Positions 40,012-53,961 of a DNA stretch of 64,000 nt are shown here, piece after piece. The DNA is taken from assembly GCF_023897065.1 (NCBI RefSeq), contig NZ_JAMHIV010000022.1, forward strand, positions 62,001 to 126,000, read 5' to 3'. The stretch's first letter is position 1, and the number at the start of each line of letters is the position of its first letter. The notes beneath the pieces were generated by a model that had not been told where the DNA came from, made no database searches, and worked only from the letters and a program-made list of their open reading frames with translations. The position numbers were made by a program, and so were the translations under genes. The DNA comes from Crossiella sp. SN42 (lineage in GTDB: Bacteria > Actinomycetota > Actinomycetes > Mycobacteriales > Pseudonocardiaceae).

Positions 40012-40093
40012 GAAGATCAGGACGAGAAGCAACCTTTTCGGCCGGAAAAGCGTTCCGCAGAGGAAGCGGAGGCGCGGGCGGGGAACAGGCGGG
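40012..40093 (+). repeat. Conserved ~80-bp intergenic element, copy A
   Basis: First of three copies (others 45703-45780 and 53885-53961, both minus). All share GCGTTCCGCAGAGGAAGCGG without change and a hairpin CTTTTC-N5-GAAAAG, then a G-rich end (GGCGGGGAA). About 90% identical over ~80 bp by eye. It lies ~100 bp downstream of the MarR stop in the same orientation. It can be read as part of an open frame, but the substitutions do not favour coding. Confidence 0.7.
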
Positions 40094-40426
40094 TCGGGCA
40101 CCGGTGACACGGGTCCGAAGAAGCGGTGTGGCGGCCCGGTGAGCGAGAGGCGTGGCAGCCTGGCGAGCAAGCGGTGTGGCGGCCGGGGCGAGCAGGCAGC
40201 GCGGCGCGGCCGGGGTGAGCAAGAGGCGCCGCCGGGATGAGCACGAGGTATGGCGCGGCCGGGGGGCGAGGCAAGCCGGTGCCGGCAACTCGGCCCTGGC
40301 AGCTCGGTCCTGGCGGATCGGCATCGGTGAAGCCGACCGGCACCGGGCCGGGCGGGCGTCGGCGATTCGCGGCCCAGCAGTTCGCGTTGCGGCCCAGCGG
40401 TTCGCGTGCGCGCTGGTTCGCCGGGG
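40094..40426. other. GC-rich low-complexity tail after copy A
   Basis: About 330 bp of degenerate short repeats (GTGTGGCGGCC and GAGCAAG words recur). No credible gene. It ends at the stop of the convergent HxlR gene. Confidence 0.5.
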
Positions 40427-40741
40427 TCACAGGTGTTCGCGGCCCCAGGCGCCGAGGGGGCGGAGGGCCTCGTTGAGGGCGATGCCGCGTGGGGTCAGCG
40501 AGTACTCGACGTGCGGCACCGGTCCGGGGCGGGCGTGCCGGTCGATGATCCCGTCGGCGATCAGCTCGCGGAGTTGGTCGGTGAGCACCTTCTCGCTGAC
40601 GCCGGGCACCAGGCGCCGGAGTTCGCCGTAGCGCTGCGGCTGCTGGCCGAGCGCCCACAGGATGAGGACCTTCCACTTGCCGCTGATGACCTCCATCGCG
40701 GCGTCCAGGCCGCAGTGGGTCGGGCGGGTTCGGACGCTCAT
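40427..40741 (-). CDS. HxlR-family transcriptional regulator
   Basis: 104 residues. CGLDAAMEVISGKWKVLILW and the winged-helix segment ELRRLVPGVSEKVLTDQLRE are characteristic of HxlR, including the single N-terminal Cys that senses electrophiles in some members. The ATG at 40741 has GGGGGTG upstream. Divergent from the imine reductase gene, which it probably controls. Confidence 0.9.
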   Translation of the reverse strand: MSVRTRPTHCGLDAAMEVISGKWKVLILWALGQQPQRYGELRRLVPGVSEKVLTDQLRELIADGIIDRHARPGPVPHVEYSLTPRGIALNEALRPLGAWGREHL

Positions 40742-40802
40742 GTGGTGCACCCCCAATCGGGGCCAGGATAACGCCGTCGGGCACGCACTTTGATGTGCGT
40801 AC

Positions 40803-40831
40803 TTGAGGTGAATTGCGGGGCGGCCTAGGTT
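40803..40831 (+). promoter_or_regulatory. Promoter of imine reductase gene (leaderless)
   Basis: TTGAGG (40803-40808), 17-bp spacer, TAGGTT (40826-40831), then 6 nt to the GTG at 40838. Transcription would start at or next to the start codon. Confidence 0.65.
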
Positions 40832-40837
40832 GAAAAT

Positions 40838-41731
40838 GTGATTACAGTGCTGGGGCTTGGTCGGATGGGATCGGCGATTGCCGGGGCTTTCGTGAAATCC
40901 GGATACTCGACGACGGTGTGGAATCGGTCTGGCGGCAAAGCTGAGCCGCTGGTCGCGCGGGGTGCGGAACGCGCGGGAAGTGTGGCTGACGCGGTGGCCG
41001 CCGGCGACATTCTGGCGGTGTGCGTCCTGGACTACGCCGCGATGTACGAGGTGCTCGATCCGGTGCGCGGGCAGTTGGCCGGGAAGGTGCTGGTGAACCT
41101 CACCTCCGGTCTGCCGAGCGAGGCGCGGGCCGCCGCGGACTGGGCGCGCGAGTGCGGTCTGCGCTACCTGGACGGCGCGGTGCTGGCCGTGCCGCCGACG
41201 GTTGGGCAGCCGCAGACTCAGTTGTTCTATGCCGGTGACCAGCAGGTTTTTCGCGAGTGTGAGCCGCTGCTCGGGGCGTTGGGCAGCAGCGTGTACTTCG
41301 GCGCGGACCCGGGCACTGCGGCCGACTTCGACCTGGCCCTGCTCGGTATTCTGTGGGCCACCCTGACCAGCGCGCTCCAGGGTTTCGCGCTGGTCGGCTC
41401 GGGGGAGCGGTTGTTGCCGTTCGCGGAGTCGTGGCTGACCAATGTGGTGCTGCCCAGTATTCGAGGTGCGGCGAGACAGGTCGACTCCGGTGAATACGGG
41501 AATGCGGTGTCCACGGTTTCTCTGAATGCGGCCGGGTTGGCGAAAATGGTTCGAGCTGGTCGCGAGCAGCGAATAGCGACCGACCTCATGGTTCCCGTCA
41601 AGGAATTCCTGGACAAACGGGTCGCCCAGGGGTTCGGCCAGGACAGTCTGGCCAGCATGTTCGAGGTCATCAGGAATCCGGGCGCGCCGACCGGTGCACC
41701 GCCTCCAGGCGAGCCAGCTCCTCGTCGGTGA
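40838..41731 (+). CDS. NADPH-dependent imine reductase-like dehydrogenase
   Basis: 297 residues. VLGLGRMGSAIAGAF is the Rossmann turn, WNRSGGKA suggests NADPH preference, and the helical C-terminal dimer domain follows, as in 6-phosphogluconate dehydrogenase-like imine reductases. These reduce cyclic or exocyclic C=N bonds. The natural substrate is unknown. A leaderless promoter precedes the GTG start. The last 62 bp overlap the convergent aldo/keto reductase gene. Confidence 0.87.
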   Translation: MITVLGLGRMGSAIAGAFVKSGYSTTVWNRSGGKAEPLVARGAERAGSVADAVAAGDILAVCVLDYAAMYEVLDPVRGQLAGKVLVNLTSGLPSEARAAADWARECGLRYLDGAVLAVPPTVGQPQTQLFYAGDQQVFRECEPLLGALGSSVYFGADPGTAADFDLALLGILWATLTSALQGFALVGSGERLLPFAESWLTNVVLPSIRGAARQVDSGEYGNAVSTVSLNAAGLAKMVRAGREQRIATDLMVPVKEFLDKRVAQGFGQDSLASMFEVIRNPGAPTGAPPPGEPAPRR

Positions 41732-42572
41732 GTCGCAGCGACCCCGCGGCGATGTTGGCCGCCAGGTGCTCCGGGTTGCCGGTGCCGGGAATGGCCAGCA
41801 CGTGCGGCCCGCGCCCCAGGGTCCAGGCCAGCCGGACCTGTGCGGTGCTCACCCCGTGGGCGGTCGCGATGGTCAGCACCTCGGTGTCCTCCGCCCCGCC
41901 CGCCCCGGACTCCTTGCCCGCCCCGGCGATGGCGAAGAACGGCACGAACGCCACACCCTGCTCGCCGCACAGCCGCAGGAACTCGTCCTGCCTGGCGGGC
42001 GCGCCGATGCCGTACTGGTTCTGCACGCACACCACCGGCGCGATCGCCTGCGCCTCGGCCAGGTGGTGCGCCCGCACGTTCGAGATGCCCAGGTGCCGGA
42101 TCAACCCGGCCGCGCGCAGTTCGGCCAGCGCGCCGAAGTGCTCGGCGATCGACTCCGGTCCGTGCACCCGCAGGTTCACCACATCGAGGTGGTCCCGGCC
42201 CAGCTGCCGCAGGTTCTCCTCGACCTGCCCGCGCAACTGCTCCGGGCGCGCCAACGGCAGCCACTCCCCGGACGGGTCCTTGCCCGGGCCGACCTTGGTG
42301 GTGATCACCAGGTCGTCCGGGTACGGTGCCAGCGCGGTGTTGATCAGCTCGTTGGCCGAGCGCAGCGGCGAGAAGTAGAAGGCGGCGGTGTCGATGTGGT
42401 TGACGCCCAGCTCGAGCGCGCGGCGCAGCACCGAGATCGCGCGGTCCCGGTCGCTGGGGGAGCCGTCGGCCTGGTGGGTCAGGCGCATCGCGCCGAAGCC
42501 GACACGGTGCACGGTCAGGTCGCCGAGGGTCCAGCTGCCCGCGTCGGCCGCGTTGATCGTTTCCCAGGTCAT
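41670..42572 (-). CDS. Aldo/keto reductase
   Basis: 300 residues, TIM-barrel AKR. VGFGAMRLT, HIDTAAFYF (Asp and Tyr of the catalytic tetrad), ITTKVG (Lys) and LRVHGP (His) are in the expected order, with IPGTGNPEHL near the NADP site. The substrate is not identifiable. It overlaps the 3' end of the imine reductase gene on the opposite strand. Confidence 0.9.
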   Translation of the reverse strand: MTWETINAADAGSWTLGDLTVHRVGFGAMRLTHQADGSPSDRDRAISVLRRALELGVNHIDTAAFYFSPLRSANELINTALAPYPDDLVITTKVGPGKDPSGEWLPLARPEQLRGQVEENLRQLGRDHLDVVNLRVHGPESIAEHFGALAELRAAGLIRHLGISNVRAHHLAEAQAIAPVVCVQNQYGIGAPARQDEFLRLCGEQGVAFVPFFAIAGAGKESGAGGAEDTEVLTIATAHGVSTAQVRLAWTLGRGPHVLAIPGTGNPEHLAANIAAGSLRLTDEELARLEAVHRSARPDS

Positions 42573-42663
42573 GCCGGAAGTCTGCCCTGTCACCCAGCCG
42601 GGTGCGCCGCTGCCAAACCGCTGTTCGACCCGACGTGGACGCGTTGCCAGGGCAGGCCACTCG

Positions 42664-45048
42664 TCAGCCGGTGCGCGTCGGCTTCGTCCGGGTCGGTGGC
42701 GGGGTGGTCGGCCTGGTCGAGGTCGGCGGCCGGCTCGGCGTCGTGGTCACCGGGCGACCACCGGTGCTCGTGGTCGGCGGCGGCGGTGGCGCGGGGTTGC
42801 GGGTCCGGGTCGGCTTCGGCCGTTCGCCCGCCGCCTCGACCTCCGGCGGTCGAGGCCGATCGCTGTGCAGGTACCGCCCCTCGACCTCCGGCAGCCCAGC
42901 CACCGGCAGGTCGTTCATGATCCCGCCCTGGCCGTTGTCGCCGTTCATCGCGCGGAACCAGGTGCGTGCCGAGTACTTCCCGCCGTAGATGTACCGGCCC
43001 TGCGAACACGGTCGCGGCGGCTGGTCCGGGCCACCGTCGCACAGGGTCTGCGGCGCCGAGGTGTCGTCGAAGGTGAACACCGCGGCCGACAGTTGCGGGG
43101 TGAAGCCGAGGAAACCGGCCGACTTGTGCTCCTGGGTGGTGCCGGTCTTGCCCGCCATCGGCCGGTCCCACTTCACCAGCTTGGCCGCCGTGGTCGCGGT
43201 GCCGCCCAGGGTGTCCTTGCTCAGCGCCACCGTCATCGCGTTCGCCAGTCCCGGCTGCACCACCTGCTCGCACTTCTGTTCCTGCACCGGAACCGGCTGG
43301 TCCTTGCGGTCCAGCACCGCCTCGATCGGGCTGGGCGGGCACCACATGCCCTCACTGGCCAGGGTCGCGCCGACGTTGGCCAGCTCCAGCGTGCTGGTCG
43401 GGGTGGGGCCGAGGGTGAAGGAGCCGAAGTTCTGCTCGGCGAAGAACCGGCCGATCGGGCGCTTCTTCCGATCCTCCGTCGCGGTCATGGTGCCCAGGGT
43501 GCGCAGGCCGAGACGCTGCGCCATGTCCACCGCGGCCTTCACCCCGACGCGCTCCAGCAGGTGCACGAAGGTGGTGTTCGGCGACTTCGCCAGCGCGTCC
43601 TGCAGGCTCATCCGGGGCGGGTAGTTGCTGTTCTCGGCGTTCTGCACGCAGTACTTGCGCAGGCCCATCGCGCCCTGCGGGCAGCTGGCCCCGCCACCGA
43701 GGAAGACGTTGGATACGTAGGTGTCGGGCACCGGCACCGACTCGGTCAGCGTGCCGCCCTGTTCCAGCAGCGCGGCCGCGGTGAAGATCTTGTAGATCGA
43801 CCCGGCACCGTGGTTCTGCGGCGAGTACGGCAGGCCGAGGGTGGTCTGGCGGGCTTTGCGGTCCAGGCCATAGGTGCGGTTCGCGGTCAGCGCGACCACG
43901 CGGTGTTTGTCCTTGCCGGGCTTGATGATGGCCATGGCGTTGGCCACGTTCGGGGTCTGCGGCGGGACTTCCTTGTCCACCGAGGCCTTGGCCTTGGCCA
44001 GCGCGTTCCGGTCCAGGGTGGTCTTGATCGTGTAGCCGCCGCGGCGCAGGTCGTCCCGCTGGAAGCCGGAGTTTTCCAGGTACTTCAGCGCATAGTCGCA
44101 GAAGTAGCCGGGGTCGCCGACTCCGACGCAGCCGTTGGGCGGGCGCGCGGGGGTGGGCGACAGGTCGAGGTTGGTCTTCTTCTCCGCCTCGCCGACGTCG
44201 GCCGGGAGGCGGCCCTGGCGCACCATCTCGTCGATGACCACGTTGCGCCGCTCCAGTGCCCGCTCCGGGTGCCGGTAGGGGTTGAGCGCGCTCGGCTCGT
44301 TGACGATCCCGGCCAGCAGCGCGGCCTGGGCGACGGTCAGCTTGTCCTGGGTGGTGTCGAAGTAGGCGCGCGCCGCGGCCTGGATGCCGAAGGAGTTCTG
44401 CCCGAACGGCACGGTGTTGAGGTAGCGGGTCAGGATCTCGTCCTTGCTCAGGGTCTGTTCGAGTTGCAGCGAGATCCGCAGCTCGCGGATCTTGCGCGCC
44501 ATCGACTGCTCCTGCGCCCTGGTGCGCTCCACCGGGGTCTTGGCCGAGATGTGCGTGAGGTGGTTCTTCACGTACTGCTGGGTCAGGGTCGAGCCGCCCT
44601 GCGAGATCCGCCCAGCGACCGCGTTCGAGATGGCGGCCCGTCCCAGTGCCACCGGATCGACGCCTTGGTGGTCGTAGAACCGGTGGTCCTCGATCGCCAC
44701 GATCGCCGACTTCACCGTGTTGGAGATCTCGTGCGCCGGAACCGGCACCCGGTACTGGTCGTAGATGTGGGCGAAGGGCTTGCCGTCGGTGTCCAGCAGC
44801 GCGGTCATCTGCGGCACCTCGTCGGCGATCAGCTCCGCCGCGGTCCGATTCACATCATCGCTGGCCAGCACCGCCACCGCGCCCGCGCCCCCGGCGAGCG
44901 GGAACAACACGCCCGCGGCCAGCATCCCAGCCAGCGCGCACAGTCCAACCAGCTTCAACACCCCGCCCGCGACCCGCCGCACCCGGGGCGGCCCCGGATC
45001 GGCCTCGTCCAGCAGGGTGTCGAACGGTGTGCCCGTGGATCCCGTCAT
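42664..45048 (-). CDS. Class A penicillin-binding protein (transglycosylase-transpeptidase)
   Basis: About 794 residues. A membrane anchor (LVGLCALAGMLAAGVLFPL) is followed by a GT51 glycosyltransferase (EDHRFYDHQGVD, GGSTLTQQYVKN, LQLEQTLSKDEI) and a transpeptidase with GSIYKIF (SxxK serine), SPN and KTGTT. A Pro/Thr-rich tail ends the protein. It polymerises and cross-links peptidoglycan at the outer face of the membrane. ATG 45048 is the first convincing start; a TTG at 45117 is in frame. It may be an alternative (accessory) PBP. Confidence 0.93.
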   Translation of the reverse strand: MTGSTGTPFDTLLDEADPGPPRVRRVAGGVLKLVGLCALAGMLAAGVLFPLAGGAGAVAVLASDDVNRTAAELIADEVPQMTALLDTDGKPFAHIYDQYRVPVPAHEISNTVKSAIVAIEDHRFYDHQGVDPVALGRAAISNAVAGRISQGGSTLTQQYVKNHLTHISAKTPVERTRAQEQSMARKIRELRISLQLEQTLSKDEILTRYLNTVPFGQNSFGIQAAARAYFDTTQDKLTVAQAALLAGIVNEPSALNPYRHPERALERRNVVIDEMVRQGRLPADVGEAEKKTNLDLSPTPARPPNGCVGVGDPGYFCDYALKYLENSGFQRDDLRRGGYTIKTTLDRNALAKAKASVDKEVPPQTPNVANAMAIIKPGKDKHRVVALTANRTYGLDRKARQTTLGLPYSPQNHGAGSIYKIFTAAALLEQGGTLTESVPVPDTYVSNVFLGGGASCPQGAMGLRKYCVQNAENSNYPPRMSLQDALAKSPNTTFVHLLERVGVKAAVDMAQRLGLRTLGTMTATEDRKKRPIGRFFAEQNFGSFTLGPTPTSTLELANVGATLASEGMWCPPSPIEAVLDRKDQPVPVQEQKCEQVVQPGLANAMTVALSKDTLGGTATTAAKLVKWDRPMAGKTGTTQEHKSAGFLGFTPQLSAAVFTFDDTSAPQTLCDGGPDQPPRPCSQGRYIYGGKYSARTWFRAMNGDNGQGGIMNDLPVAGLPEVEGRYLHSDRPRPPEVEAAGERPKPTRTRNPAPPPPPTTSTGGRPVTTTPSRPPTSTRPTTPPPTRTKPTRTG

Positions 45049-45702
45049 CGCGATCAGCCCGCCGTTCGGAGTGCCCAGGTATCTCTCATGGTGGTAGCCC
45101 GAGTACCGCACAGGCAACCAACTCGATCAGGTGGCGTGTCGCCTACCGCGCGTCGCGGCCCGCGTGTCCCGCGTGTCCCGCGTGCGTGTCCGGGCGCGGA
45201 CGTGCCGGGACCCGCAGGGGCGCGCCGAGGCCAGATGCGGAGGCCAGACGACGCCAGGCGGGGCTGCGGGCGAGGTGCGGCGCGGACGATGTGGGCGCGG
45301 ACGATGTGGGCGCGGACGATGTGCGAGCGTGCCGGGGCTGAGCGGGTCGCGGGGCCGCCGAGCGGGTGGCGGGGCCGGTGGGCTGTAGCGATGCCCACGG
45401 GCTGGGGCGTTGCCCAGGCCGGTGCGTGCCGGCACCACCGGAGCCGCACCGACAGCGGCGACGCGACGTCGGCGATGACGACGCGACATGGGTGGTGACA
45501 CGGCGACGGCGATGCGTCGGCGGCGAGATGCCGTAGCCCGGCGGCGAGTCCGCGGTCCCGCGGCGGGAACCACCCACCCGGAGCCGACGACCGGGCCGTT
45601 GGGCTCGCGCTCTGGGGCCGAGCTGGGGCCGACGCGTTGTGGCGGTAGCGCCGGGCCTGGGGCAGCCGGGGCTGAGCTGTACCCGGGCTGTGTCCGGCCC
45701 GC
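45049..45702. other. GC-rich noncoding stretch downstream of copy B
   Basis: About 650 bp with no credible gene. Low-complexity, with short GCGACG- and GTGTCCCGCG-like repeats and a 15-bp tandem repeat. It resembles the tails following the other copies of the conserved element. Confidence 0.5.
45281..45325. repeat. 15-bp tandem repeat, three copies
   Basis: CGCGGACGATGTGGG repeated at 45281, 45296 and 45311 (the last ends GCG). Noncoding. Copy number could vary between strains. Confidence 0.8.
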
Positions 45703-45780
45703 GTGTTCCCCGCCCCCGCCCTCCGCTTCCTCTGCGGAACGCTTTTCGGGCCAAAAAGGTTGCTTTCCGTCTTGATCTTC
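45703..45780 (-). repeat. Conserved ~80-bp intergenic element, copy B
   Basis: Minus-strand copy of the 40012 element: GATCAAGACGGAAAGCAACC, CTTTTT-N5-GAAAAG, the invariant GCGTTCCGCAGAGGAAGCGG and GGCGGGGAA. The stem change C to T keeps pairing as U-G. It lies about 250 bp downstream of the C39-like gene and beyond that gene's terminator. Confidence 0.7.
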
Positions 45781-45968
45781 GCGTCGGCTGGGGCCAGCGG
45801 ATGCCGGTTGGGCCGTCCCCAGTCTACCGCGCCGCGAGCACTCGACCCAGCCGCCCCGGCGGCCCCCGTGAACCGGCGGCAGCGCTCTGAACAGGGGAAA
45901 CAGCTCCGCGAGCACTGTGCGAGCGCGGCTGGGCCGTCGCAGCTATCCACAGGCTCAGTCAAAAAAGC

Positions 45969-45999
45969 CGAGGACCCCGTCACCCGGACGGGGTCCTCG
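45969..45999 (-). terminator. Intrinsic terminator of the C39-like gene
   Basis: CGAGGACCCCGTC (45969-45981) pairs with GACGGGGTCCTCG (45987-45999), 13 bp with a 5-nt loop. On the minus strand it is followed by GGC and six or more T residues. It is 29 bp after the stop of the secreted protein gene. Confidence 0.9.
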
Positions 46000-46028
46000 T
46001 TCGCATCCATTCGAGTGAGCGGCCGGGG

Positions 46029-46955
46029 TCACGGCGCCATGGAGAACCAGTTGAACGTCTCCACCATCTGCCGGGTCGTGCCCACGTAACGCCGTCCGGT
46101 CAGCTCCCAGCGGTTCACCGTCCGGTAGGTGCCGGGCTTGAGGCTCTCGTCCTCGGCGGTGTCCGGGTTGTCGTCCACCGGCAGGTACTCGTTGATCACC
46201 CGGCGGGTCAGCGTCACGTCCAGCGACTCGTACGCCGACTGGGTCTTCAGGTAGTCGCCGTCGCCGTGGTCCCAGGCACGGCCCGGGTCGGCCAGCTTGA
46301 GCTGCACCGTGTTGCCGCCGAAGGAGCCCTTCGCCGCGACCACGGTGACGATGTGGCCGCCGTTGCGCTCCAGGCTGCCGGTCTGGGGGCCCTCCTTGTA
46401 ACGGCCGTAGACCATTTGGACGGGGCCTTCGTTCAGTTTCTTGGCCAGGTCGCCGGAGAAGTCGGTGCTGGTGTGGCTGCTGGTGTTGCCGGAGGTGGTG
46501 GTCCAGCCGGCGTCGCGGGCCTTCTTGGTGGCGATGGTGAAGGCGTTGCGCAGGTTGCCCATGTTGGTGCCGCCGTCGTACTTGGCGTCCACGCCGATGC
46601 GCCCGATCGAGTTGGTGATGACGTTGTAGTCGGCCTGGTCCTTGGGGTTGAGGTTGCGCAGGTCGGTGGTGAGCCAGCCGACCGGGGCGTTCTTCTCGTG
46701 CGCCCAGTAGTGCAGCACGTTGTACAGCGAGGCGGGGCCGCAGTAGGCGCTGCCGTTGTTCTCCAGGCCGGCGCGGAACTGGTCGACGTCGCTGATGCCG
46801 CACTGCTTGACGTCGAAGTCGGCGCCGCTGACATCAGTGGCGCGGACGCAGGCAGGCGGGGGAGCGATGTCCGCCGATGCGGCGCCGGGAAGCGCGGCCA
46901 TGGTGGCGGCGGTCGCTGCTGCGGCGAGGATCAGGTTGCTGGCCTTGCGGATCAT
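46029..46955 (-). CDS. Secreted C39-like cysteine peptidase-fold protein
   Basis: 308 residues. A clear signal peptide (LILAAAATAATMAALPGAAS then ADIAPP) precedes a papain/C39-like domain: AYCGPASLYNVLHYWA (Cys), NGGHIVTVV (His) and LADPG (Asp), in the order expected for a peptidase triad. AGGAG lies 4 nt before the ATG. Substrate unknown; it may act on extracellular peptides or cell-wall cross-links. A strong terminator follows the stop. Confidence 0.75.
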   Translation of the reverse strand: MIRKASNLILAAAATAATMAALPGAASADIAPPPACVRATDVSGADFDVKQCGISDVDQFRAGLENNGSAYCGPASLYNVLHYWAHEKNAPVGWLTTDLRNLNPKDQADYNVITNSIGRIGVDAKYDGGTNMGNLRNAFTIATKKARDAGWTTTSGNTSSHTSTDFSGDLAKKLNEGPVQMVYGRYKEGPQTGSLERNGGHIVTVVAAKGSFGGNTVQLKLADPGRAWDHGDGDYLKTQSAYESLDVTLTRRVINEYLPVDDNPDTAEDESLKPGTYRTVNRWELTGRRYVGTTRQMVETFNWFSMAP

Positions 46956-47065
46956 GGCTCCTACCTTCGGTTTCTCCGCCGCCCCTCGCGGCGTGATAGG
47001 TAGAGCCTGTTCTCCGGGACCCCCACGGGCATGAGGGGCGAACCCCCAAATCCGCCCCGGCCCCC

Positions 47066-49394
47066 CTACACCAGCGCCTGTGCCAGGTCCCGGCGGCCGG
47101 TGATGCCGAGCGTGGTGTAGATCCGCCCCAGGTGGTTCTCCACGGTCTTGGGCGTCACGAACAGCTCCTGGGCGATCTCCCGGTTGGCCCGCCCGGCCGC
47201 GGCCAGCCCGGCGACCCGGCGTTCGCTGGCGGTCAGCGCCTCGGGCCCGGCGAACACCGGTCGCCGCGGCCGGTCGCCCAGCGCCTCCAGGGCTTCCACC
47301 GCGCGTTGCCGCAGCGCCGCCGAGCCGCAGTCCCCGGCCAGGTCGATGCCCCGGTGCAGCACCTCGCGGGCGTCCCCGCGCCGGCGCGCGACCCGCAGCG
47401 CCTCGCCCAGGCCGACCAGGGACCTGGCCAGTTCCAGCCGCGCCGGGCTCGCCCGCAACACCGCGACGGACTCGGTCAGCAGGTCCAGCCGCCGCTCCGG
47501 CTCGGCGTGGGCGAGCAGCCGCAGCGCCGCCCCGACCTCGGTGGCCGCGCCCCACCTGCGGGCGATGGCCAGCTGTTCGGCGGCCAGCGTGCCCGCCTCG
47601 GCGGTGTCGCCGAGCAGCATCGCCGCGCGCGCCGCGGGCGCCCGCCACGAGATGGTCGGCGGGTCCAGACCGGCCTCTGCCATCAGGTCCCGCTGCCGGG
47701 CGGACTCGGCGCGGGCGAGGCGGGGATCGTTGCGGCCCAACGCGATCAGCGCCCTGGGCTCGTGCAGCCAGATGGTCGGCATCATGGTCGGCCGGTCCGG
47801 GTGCGCGGTGTCGAAGCGGTCCAGCGCGGCGGCCGCGCCGTCCAGGTCGCCGCGTTCCAGGGCGGCGTAGGCGGTGAAGTGGGTGCCGGTGGCGCGCAGG
47901 GCGATCACGTGCGGGGCCGGATCCTCGTGGGTGATCGCGGCCAGCGCGCCCTCGGACTCGGCGTCCACCGCGGCCACGTCGCCGAGCCGCCAGTTCAGGA
48001 ACAGTCCCGCGTTGGCCACCATGGCGAACTCCACCGGCGAGCCGTGCGCGCGCACCCGCAGCCGCGCCCGGTCGATCTCCCGCCGCGCCGGCTCCACGCC
48101 GTCCGCGGAGATCAGCGCCAGCAGCGCGACCACCCAGGCGACCATGGCCTCGCTGGAGCCGGTGGCGTCGTCGAAGTAGGCGCCGTTGGCCAGCGCCGGG
48201 TCGCGGTGGCGGCGACCTCGGCGGCGGGGCGGACCTCGTAGCGGCCCATCTGGGCGAGCAGCTCGAGCAGCGTCCGCTCATCCGGTGTGCCGCCCGGCAG
48301 GCCGGCGTAGCCGCGCAGGTGGGCGGAGGAGCGGTGCCGTTCCCCGGCCATGAACGAGCGGATCACCGCCAGCCGCGCCTCCAGGTGCAGCCGCCCGGCG
48401 TCCCGGTCCCCGGCGGGCCGGGCCCGGATCGCGGCCTCCAGCTCGGCGATGGCGGTGGCCGGGCCGTCGACCACCGCGGTCGCCGAGGCCGCCGCGGCGA
48501 GCAGTTCCGCGTCGGGCAGACCGGCGGCCGCGGCGCGCAACTCGTCCCTGGCCCGCGCGGCCTCCCCGGTGCGCAGCAGCGCCCGCCCCAGCTCCGCCCG
48601 CAACGCCGGATCGTCCGGGTCCTCGTCAACCGCCCTGGTCAGGTGCTCGGCCGCGGCCCGCCCGTGCAACCCGCGGCGGGCCACCGGGCCGAGGCCGGCG
48701 AGCACCGCCTCGCGCACCACCGGATGCACAAAGACCAGGTGGTTCCCGTCGCTGACCAGCACGTTCGCCGCGGCGAGCGCCTCGGCCGCGGCGGTCAGCT
48801 CCGCCGGGTCGAGTCCGGTGATCGTCGCCGCCTGCCACGGGTCGCTGCCCACGCCGAGCACCGCGGCCGCTCCGGCCAGCCGCACCGCCGCCGAGGGCAA
48901 CCGGCCCAGCGCGGCCCGGAACACCGTGCTCGGGCCCAGCGTGCCGACCCGTGCCGCCGTCGCCGCCTCGTCCAAGGGCAGGCCCAACGTGTCCAGCTCG
49001 TCGACCAGAACCCTTGCCAGGAAAGGGTTTCCGCCACTGGCCGCATGCAGCGCCGTGACCACCGCCGGTGCGGCGGCCGGTCCGGGGCGGGCGGCGAGCA
49101 GTGCGGTCAGCGCCGCGGCGGTCAGTGGCCGCGGCAGCACCCGCTCGGCCTGCCGGGACACGCTCAGCTGGGCCAGCGGCCCGGTGTTCTCCGCGGGCGG
49201 GCGGGTGGCCACGACCAGCGCGATCGGCAGGTGGCCAGGTCCCTGGTGGCCTGCACCAGGCGGGTCTTGCCGATCCCGGCGCGGCCCTCGATCAGCACCA
49301 CCCGGCCCTCGCCGCGGGCAGCTGAGTCCAGCGCCGCCTCGATCCGGGAAAGCTCCGACTCGCGTTCCAGGACGGCGGAGTCGGGCGTGCGCAC
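47066..49394 (-). pseudogene. LAL-type LuxR regulator, frameshifted with internal deletion
   Basis: Starts at GTG 49394 (6 nt after a -10-like TACGAT) with a normal LAL N-terminus and Walker A GRAGIGKT. Near 49240 the frame changes and most of the ATPase between Walker A and LPIALVVATRP is missing. A long middle part follows in the second frame, which changes again near 48150-48190. The C-terminal LuxR helix-turn-helix (LTASERRVAGLAAAGRANRE, then VTPKTVENHLGRIYTTLG) is intact. The missing segment argues for true decay and not only sequencing error. The separate downstream frame could still make a truncated DNA-binding protein. Confidence 0.78.
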
Positions 49395-49507
49395 GGCCGG
49401 ATCGTAACCGCGAAAACCGCCGGTGGAGCCGCTGATACCCCGTGGTGATCAACCTGGGCGACCGCCGTGACCCGGTTGGCCGAACCCCGGCCGCGCGGCA
49501 GAGGAGC

Positions 49508-51679
49508 TCAGGGCTCGGCCGTGCCGTCCAGGACCATCCGCCAGTGCACCAGGTTGTGGCAGGTGATCAGGATGTTCGGATGCCACGGCCCCAGCACCCG
49601 CACCTGGTCGTCGAGCACCCTGGCCAGTTCGGTCACCGCCGCCGCCGGATCACCGGCGTGACCGCGCCAGCGCGCCAGGTTGTGCCGCGTGGTCAGCGTG
49701 TTCGGATGCCAGGGGCCGAGGGCGAAGATCTGGTCCCGCAGCAGCCGTTCCAGCTCGGTCACCGCGGTCGCGGCATCGCCGGTCGCGCCGCGCCAGCGGG
49801 CCAGGTCGTGCCGGGTGGTCAGGGTGTCCGGGTGGCGCGCGCCGAGGACCCGCACCTGCTCGCGCAGCACCGCTTCCAGTTCGGGCACGGTGCGCGCGTG
49901 CTCACCGGCGTGGCCGCGCCAGCGGGCGAGGTTGTGCCGGGTGGTCAGGGCGTGCGGATGGTGTGGCCCGAGCACCCGTTCCTGGTCGGCGAGCACCCGC
50001 TCCAGCTCCCGCACCGCGCCCGCGGCGTCACCGGTCTCGCCGCGCCAGTAGGCCGCGTTGTGCCGCGCGGTCAACGTGCTCGGGTGATCCGCGCCGACCA
50101 GCTGCCGGGTGAGCCGGTGCAGCCGGTGGAACCAGCGGGTGGCCGCGGCGACCTGCCCGCTCTCACCGAGGCTGTTGCCCGCGTGGAAGAGCAGCTCGTG
50201 CTCGGCGGTCCAGCGCTGGTCGGCGGTGTGCCGGTGCAGCGCCGCGGTGTTCGCCCGCAGCGCCCGCACCAGCGGCAGGTCCTTCTCCACCGGCGGCCAC
50301 ACCTGGCGCAGCGCGTCCGCGACCAGCTTCGCCCAGCAGGGCAGGCGATCGCCCAGCTCCTCCCGCGCGGCCCGCTGCACCAGCGTGTGCACCCGGACCG
50401 CGCGGTGCGGCGTGCCGGGATCGTGGGTCACCAGGTTCATCCGGTGCAGCCCACGCAGCGCGGTGCGCGCCTGCTCGGCGTCCACCGGCCTGCCGACGAT
50501 CTCGCCGAGGTGCTCGAGCACGGCCGGGCTGGTGAACACCGCCTCCGGCGCCCCGTTGGGGTCCAGCACGCTGGCCACGGTCAGCAGCGGCCGGGCCAGC
50601 CCCGCCGGTTCCAGCCGGTCGGCGCGCTCGACCGACAGCGACCAGGCCGCGGCGACCGTGGCCAGGTGCTCATCGGGCAGCGCGTCCCGCTCCGGCAGCA
50701 GCGAGTCCAGTCGCCGCCGCCGGTCGGCCAGCCGCGCGCGGTACTGCGCGCAGGTCAGGTCCTGGTCGATGATGTACGCGCTGGCCTGCGCCAACGCCAG
50801 CGGCAGCCGGCCGAGGTCCTCGGCGAGGCCGTCCGCGCCGGTTAGTAGGCGCGGGGTCCCGGCGAACTTCGCGGCCAGGTAGGCGGCCGATTCGGCGGCG
50901 CTGAACAGCCCGACGTCCAGGATCCGGCGTCCCGCGCCGCGCAGTGCCGCGTCCCGTCGGCGGGTGGTGGCCAGCACCGGGCCTGGCGGCCACAGCCCGT
51001 TGAGGTCGGCGGGCGCGCGGACGTCGTCCAGGACCACCAGCCAGCGCTGCGGCGCGTGCGCCAGCCAGGCGAGGAAGCGTTCCGCGGCGAGCTCCGCGCC
51101 ACCGCCGAAGCCGGTCAGGTCGGCGTAGGCAGAGGCGTAGGCGGCGATCACCGCCTCGCGGGAGTTCGCGGTCACCCAGACGAGCAGGTCCAGGTCGCCG
51201 GAGAGGCGGCGGACGTGGTCGGCGACGAGCTGGGTCTTGCCGGCCCCGGCGGGACCGGAGAGCACCACCGCGGTCGCGTGGCCATGATCGGCACCAGGCT
51301 CGTTTCCGCTCCCGGCAGCTGACCCGTGCCCGCGCGCAGTCGCGTTCCCGGCACCAGACCCAGGCTTGTTCCCGCGCTCGGTGGCGTCCTCGGCACCAGG
51401 CCCAGGCTTGTTTCCGCTCCCGGTCGCGTTCTCGGTGTCAGGCCCATCCCCGCTCGCGGTCGCGTTCCCGCCCGTCGGCTCGGTCAGTTCGGCCAGCCGG
51501 GTGCCCTCCGCGCGCGGCTGGAAGCAGTCCGCCCGCGGCGGCACCACCCCGTACCGCCTCGGCCAGCGCGGCTCCGCGGTCGAGGCCCCGGCGGCCCCGT
51601 GGAAGTGCACGCCCCCGTGGACCTGCCCCACCATCGCCGCGCCACCCCGCACCCCTCCGGCGAGCGCATTCCTGTTCAC
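49508..51679 (-). CDS. NB-ARC/TPR protein (GNVHFHG-type)
   Basis: 723 residues from GTG 51679. It has an N-terminal GQVHGGVHFHG motif of the kind seen in actinomycete NB-ARC proteins. A low-complexity Gly/Asn/Ser/Ala insert (about 65-135, with repeats of ATGSGNKPG-like words) comes before the P-loop GPAGAGKTQ. Then come WLVVLDDV (Walker B), an ARC-like helical part and C-terminal TPRs of the kinesin-light-chain type (HPNTLTTRHNLARWRGHAGD repeated about four times, 42-residue period). These STAND-like proteins act as signalling hubs or conflict sensors. Partners unknown. Confidence 0.85.
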   Translation of the reverse strand: MNRNALAGGVRGGAAMVGQVHGGVHFHGAAGASTAEPRWPRRYGVVPPRADCFQPRAEGTRLAELTEPTGGNATASGDGPDTENATGSGNKPGPGAEDATERGNKPGSGAGNATARGHGSAAGSGNEPGADHGHATAVVLSGPAGAGKTQLVADHVRRLSGDLDLLVWVTANSREAVIAAYASAYADLTGFGGGAELAAERFLAWLAHAPQRWLVVLDDVRAPADLNGLWPPGPVLATTRRRDAALRGAGRRILDVGLFSAAESAAYLAAKFAGTPRLLTGADGLAEDLGRLPLALAQASAYIIDQDLTCAQYRARLADRRRRLDSLLPERDALPDEHLATVAAAWSLSVERADRLEPAGLARPLLTVASVLDPNGAPEAVFTSPAVLEHLGEIVGRPVDAEQARTALRGLHRMNLVTHDPGTPHRAVRVHTLVQRAAREELGDRLPCWAKLVADALRQVWPPVEKDLPLVRALRANTAALHRHTADQRWTAEHELLFHAGNSLGESGQVAAATRWFHRLHRLTRQLVGADHPSTLTARHNAAYWRGETGDAAGAVRELERVLADQERVLGPHHPHALTTRHNLARWRGHAGEHARTVPELEAVLREQVRVLGARHPDTLTTRHDLARWRGATGDAATAVTELERLLRDQIFALGPWHPNTLTTRHNLARWRGHAGDPAAAVTELARVLDDQVRVLGPWHPNILITCHNLVHWRMVLDGTAEP

Positions 51680-52284
51680 GTGTCCTGCCCCCTGCTACCA
51701 GGCGATTTACCTGTACAACCACCGCTCGCGAACGAGTGATGGCAGTCACGCTAATGGGTGTGTCAACACGAGTTGCAGGGCGGTCTGCACACTCGGGGTC
51801 GCCGCGCTTGTGCGCCACAAACGGAACAAATCGGGCTCGAATCCGTGGCGCCGAGCCGTCTGTCCATTGTGGACACTGTCGGCGCTGGGACTGTCTCGCG
51901 GCGGCCGCGCCGGCGGTCGGCCGGTCGCTCCCCGGCCGGCGGTCCTCGTCGTCGATATCCGCGCGGGTGTCCGGAGAACGCACAACTTCGTTGGGCCGAA
52001 CGGGTGCTTCGGTGTACCGCCTTTTCCGTACCGCGACCGTTTCGGAAAGTGCGGTGACGAACGCCTCAGCACGGCTTCGCAACGGCGCTCGCGTCTGCGC
52101 GCCAACGGCAACGCCGCTGCTCCAGCGAGGGCGAAAGTTGCTGATCATGACGGGTGCGACCGGCAGAACCGGCTCGCGGCAACCCACCGGAAGTCGAGTG
52201 GCCGAGTCCTATTAGCAGTATTCTTCTCCGATTCGTTACCCTCTCTGTGGGGGTACTTCTCAACTGGCCAGAACGGAGACGTTC
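51680..52284. other. Intergenic, no convincing gene
   Basis: About 600 bp, less GC-rich in parts. Open frames exist on both strands but lack ribosome sites and coherent protein features. It should hold the promoters of the NB-ARC gene and of the small gene at 52285. Confidence 0.4.
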
Positions 52285-52632
52285 GTGTTCACGCCGCACC
52301 CGGTTCGGCGAAGCCGTATCACCAGTTCGAAGGTCACCTGGCGGGCCGCGATGCCACGCATCGCGCACGGCCCGGCAAGTGCGAACGGGAGTCAGGCCAC
52401 GGTCACCGAACCGTCCAACAACACCACTGGGCAGCAGGACCTGTTCGCGCTCGATCGCGAGCCAGCGCAGCCGGTAGATGACCGCGTCGATCTGCCCGTC
52501 GACGAGTTTCCGCAGGTGGAGCTGACCGGCGAGGACGACGTCCTCCCGCCGGAGATCAGCTTCGAGCTGTTCCTTGAACGCCTGGACGAAGTCCTGCGCG
52601 CCGAGGCCGACGCCAACTCGGTGAGGTCCTGA
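52285..52632 (+). CDS. Small acidic hypothetical protein
   Basis: 115 residues from GTG 52285 with GGAG 6 nt upstream. The N-terminus is basic, the C-terminal half strongly acidic (VDDRVDLPVDEFPQVELTGE, then PPEISFELFLERLDEVL helix). No family recognised. It stands alone, divergent from the NB-ARC/TPR gene. Confidence 0.5.
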   Translation: MFTPHPVRRSRITSSKVTWRAAMPRIAHGPASANGSQATVTEPSNNTTGQQDLFALDREPAQPVDDRVDLPVDEFPQVELTGEDDVLPPEISFELFLERLDEVLRAEADANSVRS

Positions 52633-52952
52633 TCCACCAGCCCTGACCCGTTGGCGGGTCGGGAACTTCCCCTCGACGGGCATTCGAGTCGCCGAGGACG
52701 CTAGCGGTCGCGCCAAGATCACCTGATCTTCCTCAGGCCGCGACCCGGGGGCGCAGGACTACCCCGATCGGGTCACCCAGCACATCAAGCACATCAGGTT
52801 CACCCGTTGGGGCCACCTGCCGGTCATCCGGCCACTGGCCCCGGCGAAGCCGTGCGGCGTTGGCTGGTGCCGGACCACTCCGGCATCGGCCGAGCCGCCC
52901 GCTGGGTCGGGGTGACTGTCCACAAGGGATGGTCGCTTCCGCTTGTCTTCCG

Positions 52953-53001
52953 CCGGTTGCCGGTTGCCGGTTGCCGGTTGCCGGTTGCCGGTTGCCGGTT
53001 C
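52953..53001. repeat. Heptamer tandem repeat CCGGTTG, seven units
   Basis: Six exact units and a final CCGGTTC. Noncoding; period 7 shifts the reading frame with each unit. Confidence 0.9.
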
Positions 53002-53540
53002 GCCCGTCGCCAGCACCGAGCCGGTGCCGGTGTCGGTTGCTGACGGGCTCGGGCCGGGGCTCTCGTTGCGCTTGTGTCGCGTGCCGCCGTGGGCAGGGCG
53101 GCGGTGGGCTCTGGCGGCGCGAGACGCTTCTGCCGCAAGCGAAATCCGCCGTGAGCGCGTCCGTTGCCTGGCTGCGGTCGCGCTCGTCGGTCAGCGTCGG
53201 AGATGTCCTTGTGGCCGCTCGATTTCGCCCGTTCGTGTGGCCAGTTGGGGGCGGATGCCGTCACCTCCGCCTCGGACGCGCCCAGCCGGCCCGCTGCCGG
53301 TTAGCGCTGCCAGCCGCTGCCGGTTGCGTTGGTGCCCGTCGCTCCCGGCTGACGGCTCGACGGGCGCGATCCCATCCCGCGGCCGGCGCTCGCGGCGGCT
53401 CATTCGTCGACGCCCTCGTTGGCCTCCGGCGCTCTCCACCGTTGCCGCCGCTGTCGCCAGGTCCGCGGCGCTGCCGCTTTGCTCGCCGGGGCGGCAACGG
53501 GCAAGGCACTTGCGCGGGCCGCTCCTGATCGCTGGTGTGC

Positions 53541-53610
53541 GCCCGACGCCCGACGCCCGACGCCCGACGCCCGACGCCCGACGCCCGACGCCCGACGCCC
53601 GACGCCCGCC
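53541..53610. repeat. Heptamer tandem repeat GCCCGAC, ten units
   Basis: Nine exact units then GCCCGCC. A second 7-bp array 540 bp from the first, with an unrelated unit. Typical of slippage-prone noncoding DNA. Confidence 0.9.
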
Positions 53611-53884
53611 TGGCCGCGTGGCTCCCCGCGCGCTCGGAGCGTCAGGCTGACCAGGTCGCGTGCCGCGCCTATCCGCGCGCCAGGACCGTCCAGCTGCCCG
53701 CCGCGGCCAACACGATCGCCTGGGTCGCCCGGTTGTCCTGCGGAGGCGGCCACATCGCACCGGGCCGCTGACCCGGTCGCGCCAGGCGAGGCCGGGGTGG
53801 CCGTCTGGGGGCTCGGCTGGGCTGGGGCGAGTGGCTGGGCTGGCTTGGTCTGGTTGGGGGCCGGGTGGGCCGTGGCTGGCCCGC

Positions 53885-53961
53885 TTGTTTCCCCGCCCGC
53901 GCCTCCGCTTCCTCTGCGGAACGCTTTTCGGGGCGAAAAGGTTGCTTTCCGTCTTGATCTT
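53885..53961 (-). repeat. Conserved ~80-bp intergenic element, copy C
   Basis: Minus-strand copy: GATCAAGACGGAAAGCAACC, CTTTTC-N5-GAAAAG, the invariant GCGTTCCGCAGAGGAAGCGG, then GGCGCGGGCGGGGAAA. It lies about 260 bp downstream of the IclR stop in the same orientation, matching the arrangement of the other two copies. Confidence 0.7.

Follow-up and report, generated by a model that had tools for sequence, protein, structure and literature searches.

A multicopy intergenic element of Crossiella with extracytoplasmic-function-type promoter boxes and a GC-rich tail

The stretch considered here, a 64,000-nt window of the genome of Crossiella sp. SN42, contains an intergenic element of about 80 bp in three copies, located at 40012–40093 (+), 45703–45780 (−), and 53885–53961 (−), as a first-pass annotation made from the letters had reported. 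Over 90–93 bases, copy 2 is 91% and copy 1 is 88% identical to copy 3, in agreement with the identity of about 90% estimated there by eye, and the 20-bp sequence described as invariant, GCGTTCCGCAGAGGAAGCGG, has three exact matches in the window (0.04 expected), a number that none of 100 shuffles reaches. Each copy follows a gene of the same orientation, the gaps to the first conserved core base being 114, 261, and 271 bp, and is itself followed by DNA that is indeed GC-rich and repetitive. The upstream genes had been named MarR, C39-like, and IclR; the first and last names hold, while the C39-like protein has no match in Pfam (E 1e-4) or NCBIfam (E 1e-5). Copy 2 is followed, after 615 bp, by a gene for a class A penicillin-binding protein (42664–45111, −; Pfam Transgly and Transpeptidase).

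The motif G[GC]AAC[CT]-N16/17-CGTT is present at three places in the window, which are exactly the three elements. When four Crossiella genomes (our own genome, G000, of 9.7 Mb in 82 contigs, and G001, G002, and G003) are searched with a profile of the right half of the element only (R2), G[C/G]AAC is found 17–18 bases before CGTT in 72 of the 75 matches, 55 of them reading GCAAC-N17-CGTT and 17 GGAAC-N18-CGTT, each −35 form with its own spacing. Of the other three, which have neither form, two look like chance matches and one is a weak match in G003 that has CGAT. In alignment A4 (45 sequences, three genera), the invariant columns are G, AAC, GTT, CGC, and two right-half G, and the spacer is unconserved; the R2 count is the fairer one, because the rows of A4 derive from a pattern-based list demanding the boxes.

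Among the Corynebacterium glutamicum SigE/SigH promoters given in the consulted part of PMC10012870, most read GGAACN-N16-CGTT, with a few variants and one GCAACC-N16-CGTT. The boxes of the element, with a −35 of GGAACN or GCAACC, 16–17 bp, and a −10 of CGTT, match these mapped promoters exactly, including GCAACC-N16-CGTT and GGAACT-N16-CGTT. For the promoters listed in that part, the distance to the start codon of the protein gene is 0–397 nt, whereas the Crossiella copies are not linked to any consistent gene and continue into a conserved start and a GC-rich tail. The own genome encodes a SigH_actino ortholog (353 bits, cut-off 251.55), besides 25 weaker matches. Two of four extracytoplasmic-function (ECF) sigma genes examined have a SigE/SigH-class box pair, 174 and 236 nt before the match of the hidden Markov model: GGAAT-N17-CGTT at the SigH ortholog and GGAACT-N16-CGTT at the second-best gene; the third locus has no upstream box pair and the fourth only a distant one. 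By analogy, the element is best read as a promoter of the SigE/SigH class of ECF sigma factors. An additional box, CAC[CT][CT]G, about 24 or 32–33 bases before the left box, is present in 33 of 83 Crossiella copies and 7 of 26 others, against 44 of 360 control windows, this box having been picked from the same sequences in which it was counted.

Table 1. Parts of the three element copies in the window
Feature	Positions	Strand	Basis or remark
Copy 1, −35-like box GCAACC	40029..40034	+	G.AAC block of alignment A4; SigE/SigH-like spacing
Copy 1, 16-bp spacer with most of the CTTTTC/GAAAAG inverted repeat	40035..40050	+	
Copy 1, −10-like box CGTT	40051..40054	+	20-mer; alignment A4
Copy 1, conserved CCGC-AGAGGAA-GCGG and G-rich tract	40055..40084	+	Alignments A3, A4; transcript start predicted within AGAGG
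Copy 1, GC-rich non-conserved tail	40085..40426	+	Stops at convergent HxlR gene
Copy 2, −35-like box GCAACC	45758..45763	−	
Copy 2, −10-like box CGTT	45738..45741	−	
Copy 2, conserved purine-rich and G-rich start	45706..45737	−	Four-genome footprint
Copy 2, GC-rich tail	45112..45705	−	Reaches co-oriented penicillin-binding-protein gene; between species hardly alignable except just before the gene
Copy 3, −35-like box GCAACC	53940..53945	−	
Copy 3, −10-like box CGTT	53920..53923	−	
Copy 3, conserved purine-rich and G-rich start	53888..53919	−	Alignment A4
Copy 3, GC-rich repetitive tail with GGGCGTC units	53330..53887	−	Far end approximate, from genus average

Further copies are present in the own genome and in its relatives. 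In G000, 8 copies lie within 2 mismatches of the 20-mer, and a sequence-only profile of the whole element (R1) finds 20 places at E ≤ 1, 13 of these below 1e-5. With R2 at E ≤ 0.05 there are 19 matches in G000, 18 in G001, 28 in G002, and 10 in G003, of which 17, 18, 28, and 9, respectively, also have the left box. The final profile (R3) gives, at E ≤ 0.02, 18 copies in G000 and 18 in G081, a genome of the same species; for G002 the best 22 candidates were scored. Overall, the own genome has about 18 copies and the four other Crossiella genomes 9 to 28, and the composite of a fixed module and a variable tail noted in the window recurs in all five genomes examined. The E-values are rough, since the profiles were built stepwise from hits and training hits match by construction, and copies from related genomes are not independent of one another. 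Several of the analyses below use a list of copies built with a pattern demanding both boxes, in which identical sequences were entered once; three identical copies were restored for the neighbor grouping and the GC test, and two antisense duplicates were dropped before the open-reading-frame (ORF) and fold, neighbor-group, anti-Shine–Dalgarno, upstream-box, GC-step, and spacer analyses.

The copies fall into subfamilies, across all of which the right half is recognizable. Type A has the left box GCAACC and GAAAAGCGTTCCGCAGAGGAAGCGG; type B has GCAACC, a spacer AAAA...GTT, and CGTTCCGCAGAGGAACGGTGG; type C reads CGTTCCGCTAGAGAGCGG; and types D and E have GGAACT or GGAACC as left box, the spacer mostly ending in TGATCnTTT. 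One-base length differences occur between or just after the blocks (CCGC-AGAG, CCGC-AAGAG, and CCGC-TAGAG; CGTT-CCGC and CGTT-ACCGC). At one locus, defined by its neighbor genes (L135, L172, L118, L148), the box is of the GGAAC type in G000, G081, and G002 and of the GGCAACC type in G003, an apparent switch of promoter type in place.

Over 220 genomes of the family, R3 matches strongly in all five Crossiella genomes. Elsewhere, matches below 1e-4 come from eight genomes of genus g8 and from one genome each of g27 and g21, with five weaker ones (0.0013–0.016) in one g67 genome. Six of these non-Crossiella genomes contributed sequences to R3, and most of the remaining matches cover only part of the model (training: G010, G109, G147, G163, G216, G154, and Crossiella; independent: G193, G227, G236, G182, G234, G077, and G205). 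The layout is that of Crossiella in different wording: GGGAACC-N16-CGTTCCGCAAGGTRAGGAAGCGCGGGGG and variants in g8, GGCAACTTTTCC...TTTCGTTGCCGGGAAAGAAGGAGGCGG in the four copies of g21, and GGGAACTTTCCC...TTCGTTGCGAGTAAAGAGGTGGGGG in g67. Outside the family, none of 295 other genomes sampled from the class matches R3 at E ≤ 0.001 (1 of 296 with the own genome). Two-box patterns outside Crossiella give 0–4 places per genome, and their reversed controls 0–7. When a sequence collection was scanned with GCAACC-N15-GCGTTCCGCAGARGAA, nine stretches came up, each belonging to Crossiella sp. S99.2; that collection possibly lacks the own genome.

Conservation is concentrated in the element. When the intergenic region of copy 2 is aligned among G000, G081, G001, and G002, a single near-identical island of about 75 bp stands in DNA that can hardly be aligned from one species pair to the other, except directly ahead of the next gene. 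In 13 G000/G081 pairs, the identity in 10-base bins is 0.97–1.00 at 0 to +59, 0.80–0.95 at −150 to −11, and 0.62–0.81 at +100 to +269; in 13 G001/G002 pairs, it is 0.89–1.00 in the core, 0.61–0.88 upstream, and 0.62–0.76 at +80 to +249. Grouped by neighbor genes, the 86 copies form 26 groups spanning at least two genomes and 15 singles (copies 1 and 2 of the window, having common neighbors, fall into one group), and 16 of the 17 G000 copies tested have a partner in another genome, about 10 of them in another species. The core identity and the common neighbors between genomes indicate that the element is old and mostly fixed in place, and that selection acts on its body and not on its surroundings. 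By this comparison it is evidently a constrained element, not a mobile repeat.

Past the −10 box, the first 14 bases of the predicted transcript are 82–84% purine, and in the 26 nt after the core at least four GG runs are found in 67 of 67 copies, compared with 17% of control windows. The GC content rises from 0.63–0.71 upstream to 0.75–0.79 up to +600 and then returns to 0.65–0.74 (66 copies at the start, fewer further out), overall a step from ~66% to ~76% that lasts for about 550 bases; downstream exceeds upstream GC in 72 of 75 copies, 11 of the 86 having been left out for short flanks. Internal repeats amount to 0.105 in the tails and 0.054 in other intergenic DNA (the intergenic control for repeats and GG runs includes some tail DNA). 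A short tandem GGGCGTC run lies at 53541–53607 (−) in the tail of copy 3. On average, the G-skew of the tails is not above that of upstream DNA, though GG runs are enriched; a driver of the R-loop or G-quadruplex kind is no more than a possibility.

The tails do not appear to encode a product. The longest open run is 101 codons, compared with 103 in shuffles (87 copies), and a coding tail was accordingly rejected; with the one-base insertions and deletions at the blocks, this also makes the fragment of a coding gene, one of the readings first offered for the element, unlikely, no synonymous-site test having been made. A structured tail was likewise rejected, the mean folding z-score being −0.49 in the tails and −0.83 upstream. 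In the own assembly, four elements are no more than a few hundred bases away from a contig end (C17:176-261, C24:332-398, C28:2-65, and C36:94615-94680 on a contig of 94776), and in C17, C24, and C36 it is the tail that faces this end, as though assembly had difficulty with the GC-rich tails.

Taken together, we consider that each copy is probably the head of an independent noncoding transcription unit with a promoter of the ECF-sigma type. A SigE/SigH-class sigma factor would recognize G[G/C]AACY-N16/17-CGTT, and transcription would start about 5–8 bases past CGTT, inside the conserved AGAGGAA, as judged from the usual distance. The RNA would consist of a conserved purine-rich and then G-rich piece of about 30 nt followed by a GC-rich, sequence-free tail of about 0.3–0.6 kb, which may be a mere spacer and run-out. 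The 9 to 28 units per genome, at stable, scattered intergenic sites, would be induced jointly by stress that releases the sigma factor, and either the conserved 5′ piece would function as a multicopy small RNA (sRNA) acting in trans or the act of transcription itself would matter. The most likely role is that of a multicopy RNA that acts in trans and is induced together with the SigE/SigH stress response. Such units would explain why the spacing is fixed, why each of the two left boxes keeps a spacing of its own, why the GC step is one-sided, and why the copies stand apart from genes at stable positions. Among the readings offered by the first-pass annotation, a small RNA comes nearest, except that most of the fixed module reads as promoter and first transcribed bases.

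Several observations weigh against this assignment. ECF promoter motifs are short and the sigma factor is assigned by analogy; two weak G003 candidates have CGAT in place of CGTT; and conservation extends about 20–30 bp beyond the boxes, exceeding the needs of a promoter. The other genera have a weaker GC step, from about 0.66 to 0.73 (27 copies). Intrinsic terminators are found in just 2 of 68 tails, and their near absence means that the RNA would have no defined end. No common function appears among ten upstream and ten downstream proteins and ten around the window copies. Pairing of the Crossiella leader with the 16S anti-Shine–Dalgarno sequence has an energy of −11.2 kcal/mol, compared with −12.7 kcal/mol for shuffled leaders (83 copies); the values in other genera are −12.3 and −12.7 kcal/mol (27 copies), with L339 clearly beating its shuffles. 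A Shine–Dalgarno-like stabilizer at the RNA start was therefore rejected as a general property.

We have also considered that the element simply serves the next co-oriented gene as its ECF promoter, the 5′ untranslated region (UTR) being very long and GC-rich. Such an arrangement would suit copy 2, since orthologs of its downstream penicillin-binding-protein gene in three genomes also have the element, 426–556 bp upstream, and penicillin-binding proteins are named among the sigma-E targets of S. coelicolor in the consulted part of PMC6767563. However, this gene has an upstream region of its own, conserved in four genomes, and the ten downstream genes share no theme. Among 69 Crossiella copies, 29 have a co-oriented and 36 an opposite next downstream gene, while for 4 none is in view (three at contig ends, one at the end of the analyzed stretch), so that this gene is opposite in 36 of 65; in the other genera it is co-oriented in 13 of 27 and opposite in 14. 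Where co-oriented, it is usually several hundred bp away, and there is no consistent protein-gene target. We therefore regard this explanation as unlikely. The upstream region of the penicillin-binding-protein gene contains CACCTGATCGAGTTGGTTGCC, which resembles the upstream box of some elements.

On the other side of the element, the upstream gene is co-oriented in 48 of the 69 copies and opposite in 21 (co-oriented in 22 of 27 in other genera), so that the first-pass rule of a co-oriented upstream gene, true of the window, is a tendency across the genus. These counts rely on a home-made coding-bias gene caller; of the copies counted, one (L149, in G003) is doubtful and two lie under an ORF that was called weakly. 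A strong intrinsic terminator stands behind the upstream gene of copy 2, before the element, and also in the G081 ortholog. Because it separates gene and element, copy 2 is not simply a 3′ UTR, and with the 21 oppositely oriented genes the 3′ UTR module that had been suggested is unlikely.

Alternatively, the element could be an untranscribed DNA site for a dedicated binding protein, serving nucleoid organization, a chromosome domain, or recombination. The fixed spacing, the intergenic location, the many copies, and the inverted repeat in the type A spacer would all be consistent with such a site, as would the distribution in G081, where 17 of 18 copies lie within 2.7–7.0 Mb and the remaining one (C1:9166583-9166650) is about 3.6 kb before the end of a contig whose other end starts with dnaA. 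In G081, however, the strands are mixed along the chromosome, so that there is no Ter-like polarity, and a replication-terminator reading was rejected on this ground. A binding site would also leave unaccounted for the exact fit to ECF boxes, the left-box variants that equal the two mapped −35 forms, each with its own spacing, and the one-sidedness of the GC step. Such a role thus seems improbable to us.

That the whole module is the body of a structured RNA of about 80 nt, either a small RNA or a riboswitch, is still harder to accept. The hairpin CTTTTY-N5-GAAAAG proposed in the first-pass annotation, with its pairing-preserving change from C-G to U-G, is real in the three window copies but is a trait of subfamilies: the CTTTTC/GAAAAG repeat lies inside the promoter spacer of type A, type B often has AAAA/TTTT arms, and types D, E, and most G003 copies have neither. 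In alignment A1 (27 distinct sequences) the stem pairs in 79.6% of cells, and its covariation score exceeds 499 of 500 shuffles, yet a slide by one column scores higher. The RNAalifold consensus of A1 does not include this hairpin and contains no double change, and the hairpin was rejected as a core feature. The CCGC/GCGG flanks, with a loop of variable length, pair in 88% of cells with zero double changes, which speaks neither for nor against a stem. The covariation that had been looked to as a check is therefore absent from the consensus fold and the flanks, and mixed for the hairpin. For ten copies, the fold z-scores are spread about zero and the folds disagree with one another. Rfam finds one tRNA only in the window at the gathering threshold and, in six loci at E 0.5, only an Ms_IGR-5 (Ms1, RF02471) match adjoining an element, which itself is unmatched. 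This match (77.8 bits; L312 1161–1414, genome G234 of genus g67) ends about 87 nt upstream of the element copy; Ms1 is likewise an actinobacterial intergenic RNA, but a different one.

A promoter head that works as a decoy, titrating the ECF sigma holoenzyme instead of acting via RNA, would explain many good sites without a consistent gene and the free tail sequence, but it leaves the conservation beyond the boxes unexplained and is highly improbable. A repeat of the miniature inverted-repeat transposable element, repetitive extragenic palindrome, or insertion sequence type, as first proposed in part, is scarcely credible, because most positions are common to several genomes, also across species, and no phage or plasmid match was found (no search for terminal repeats or target duplications was made), even though the copies are dispersed, multicopy, and intergenic and their G-rich part is partly alike within a genome.

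A bolder form of the noncoding-unit proposal is tentative, and we put it forward as a possibility. In it, each chromosome would have about 20 dispersed noncoding units driven by a stress sigma factor. Selection would act on no more than the promoter and the first ~30 transcribed bases of a unit, the next ~550 bases being kept merely as GC-rich, sequence-free DNA. Action would be via transcription or a purine/G-rich 5′ RNA tag, with no encoded product, and each genus of the Pseudonocardiaceae with such units would have its own rewritten version.

Among the titles and opening lines of abstracts listed in literature searches, mostly of papers available without subscription, we found no description of such elements. 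Johansen reportedly described sigma-E-dependent sRNAs of enterobacteria in 2006; these are few and structured, and the likeness is that of an ECF sigma factor driving noncoding RNAs. The LhrC sRNAs of Listeria have structured loops. As several related copies under one stress regulator, LhrC1–5 are also comparable, although in the consulted part of PMC5880928 they are five LisR-controlled members, whereas the Crossiella elements have ECF-type boxes, 9–28 copies, no conserved fold, and long tails.

The constant boxes provide a list of sites that can be tested immediately, and the sharp border between head and tail can be used to separate an effect of transcription from an effect of the RNA sequence. 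If the proposal is true, a large antibiotic-producing family would have a noncoding branch in its ECF stress regulons, with more copies than sRNA families of the LhrC1–5 type. Since the outputs of this branch have almost no sequence in common, it would be visible only through the comparison of related genomes.

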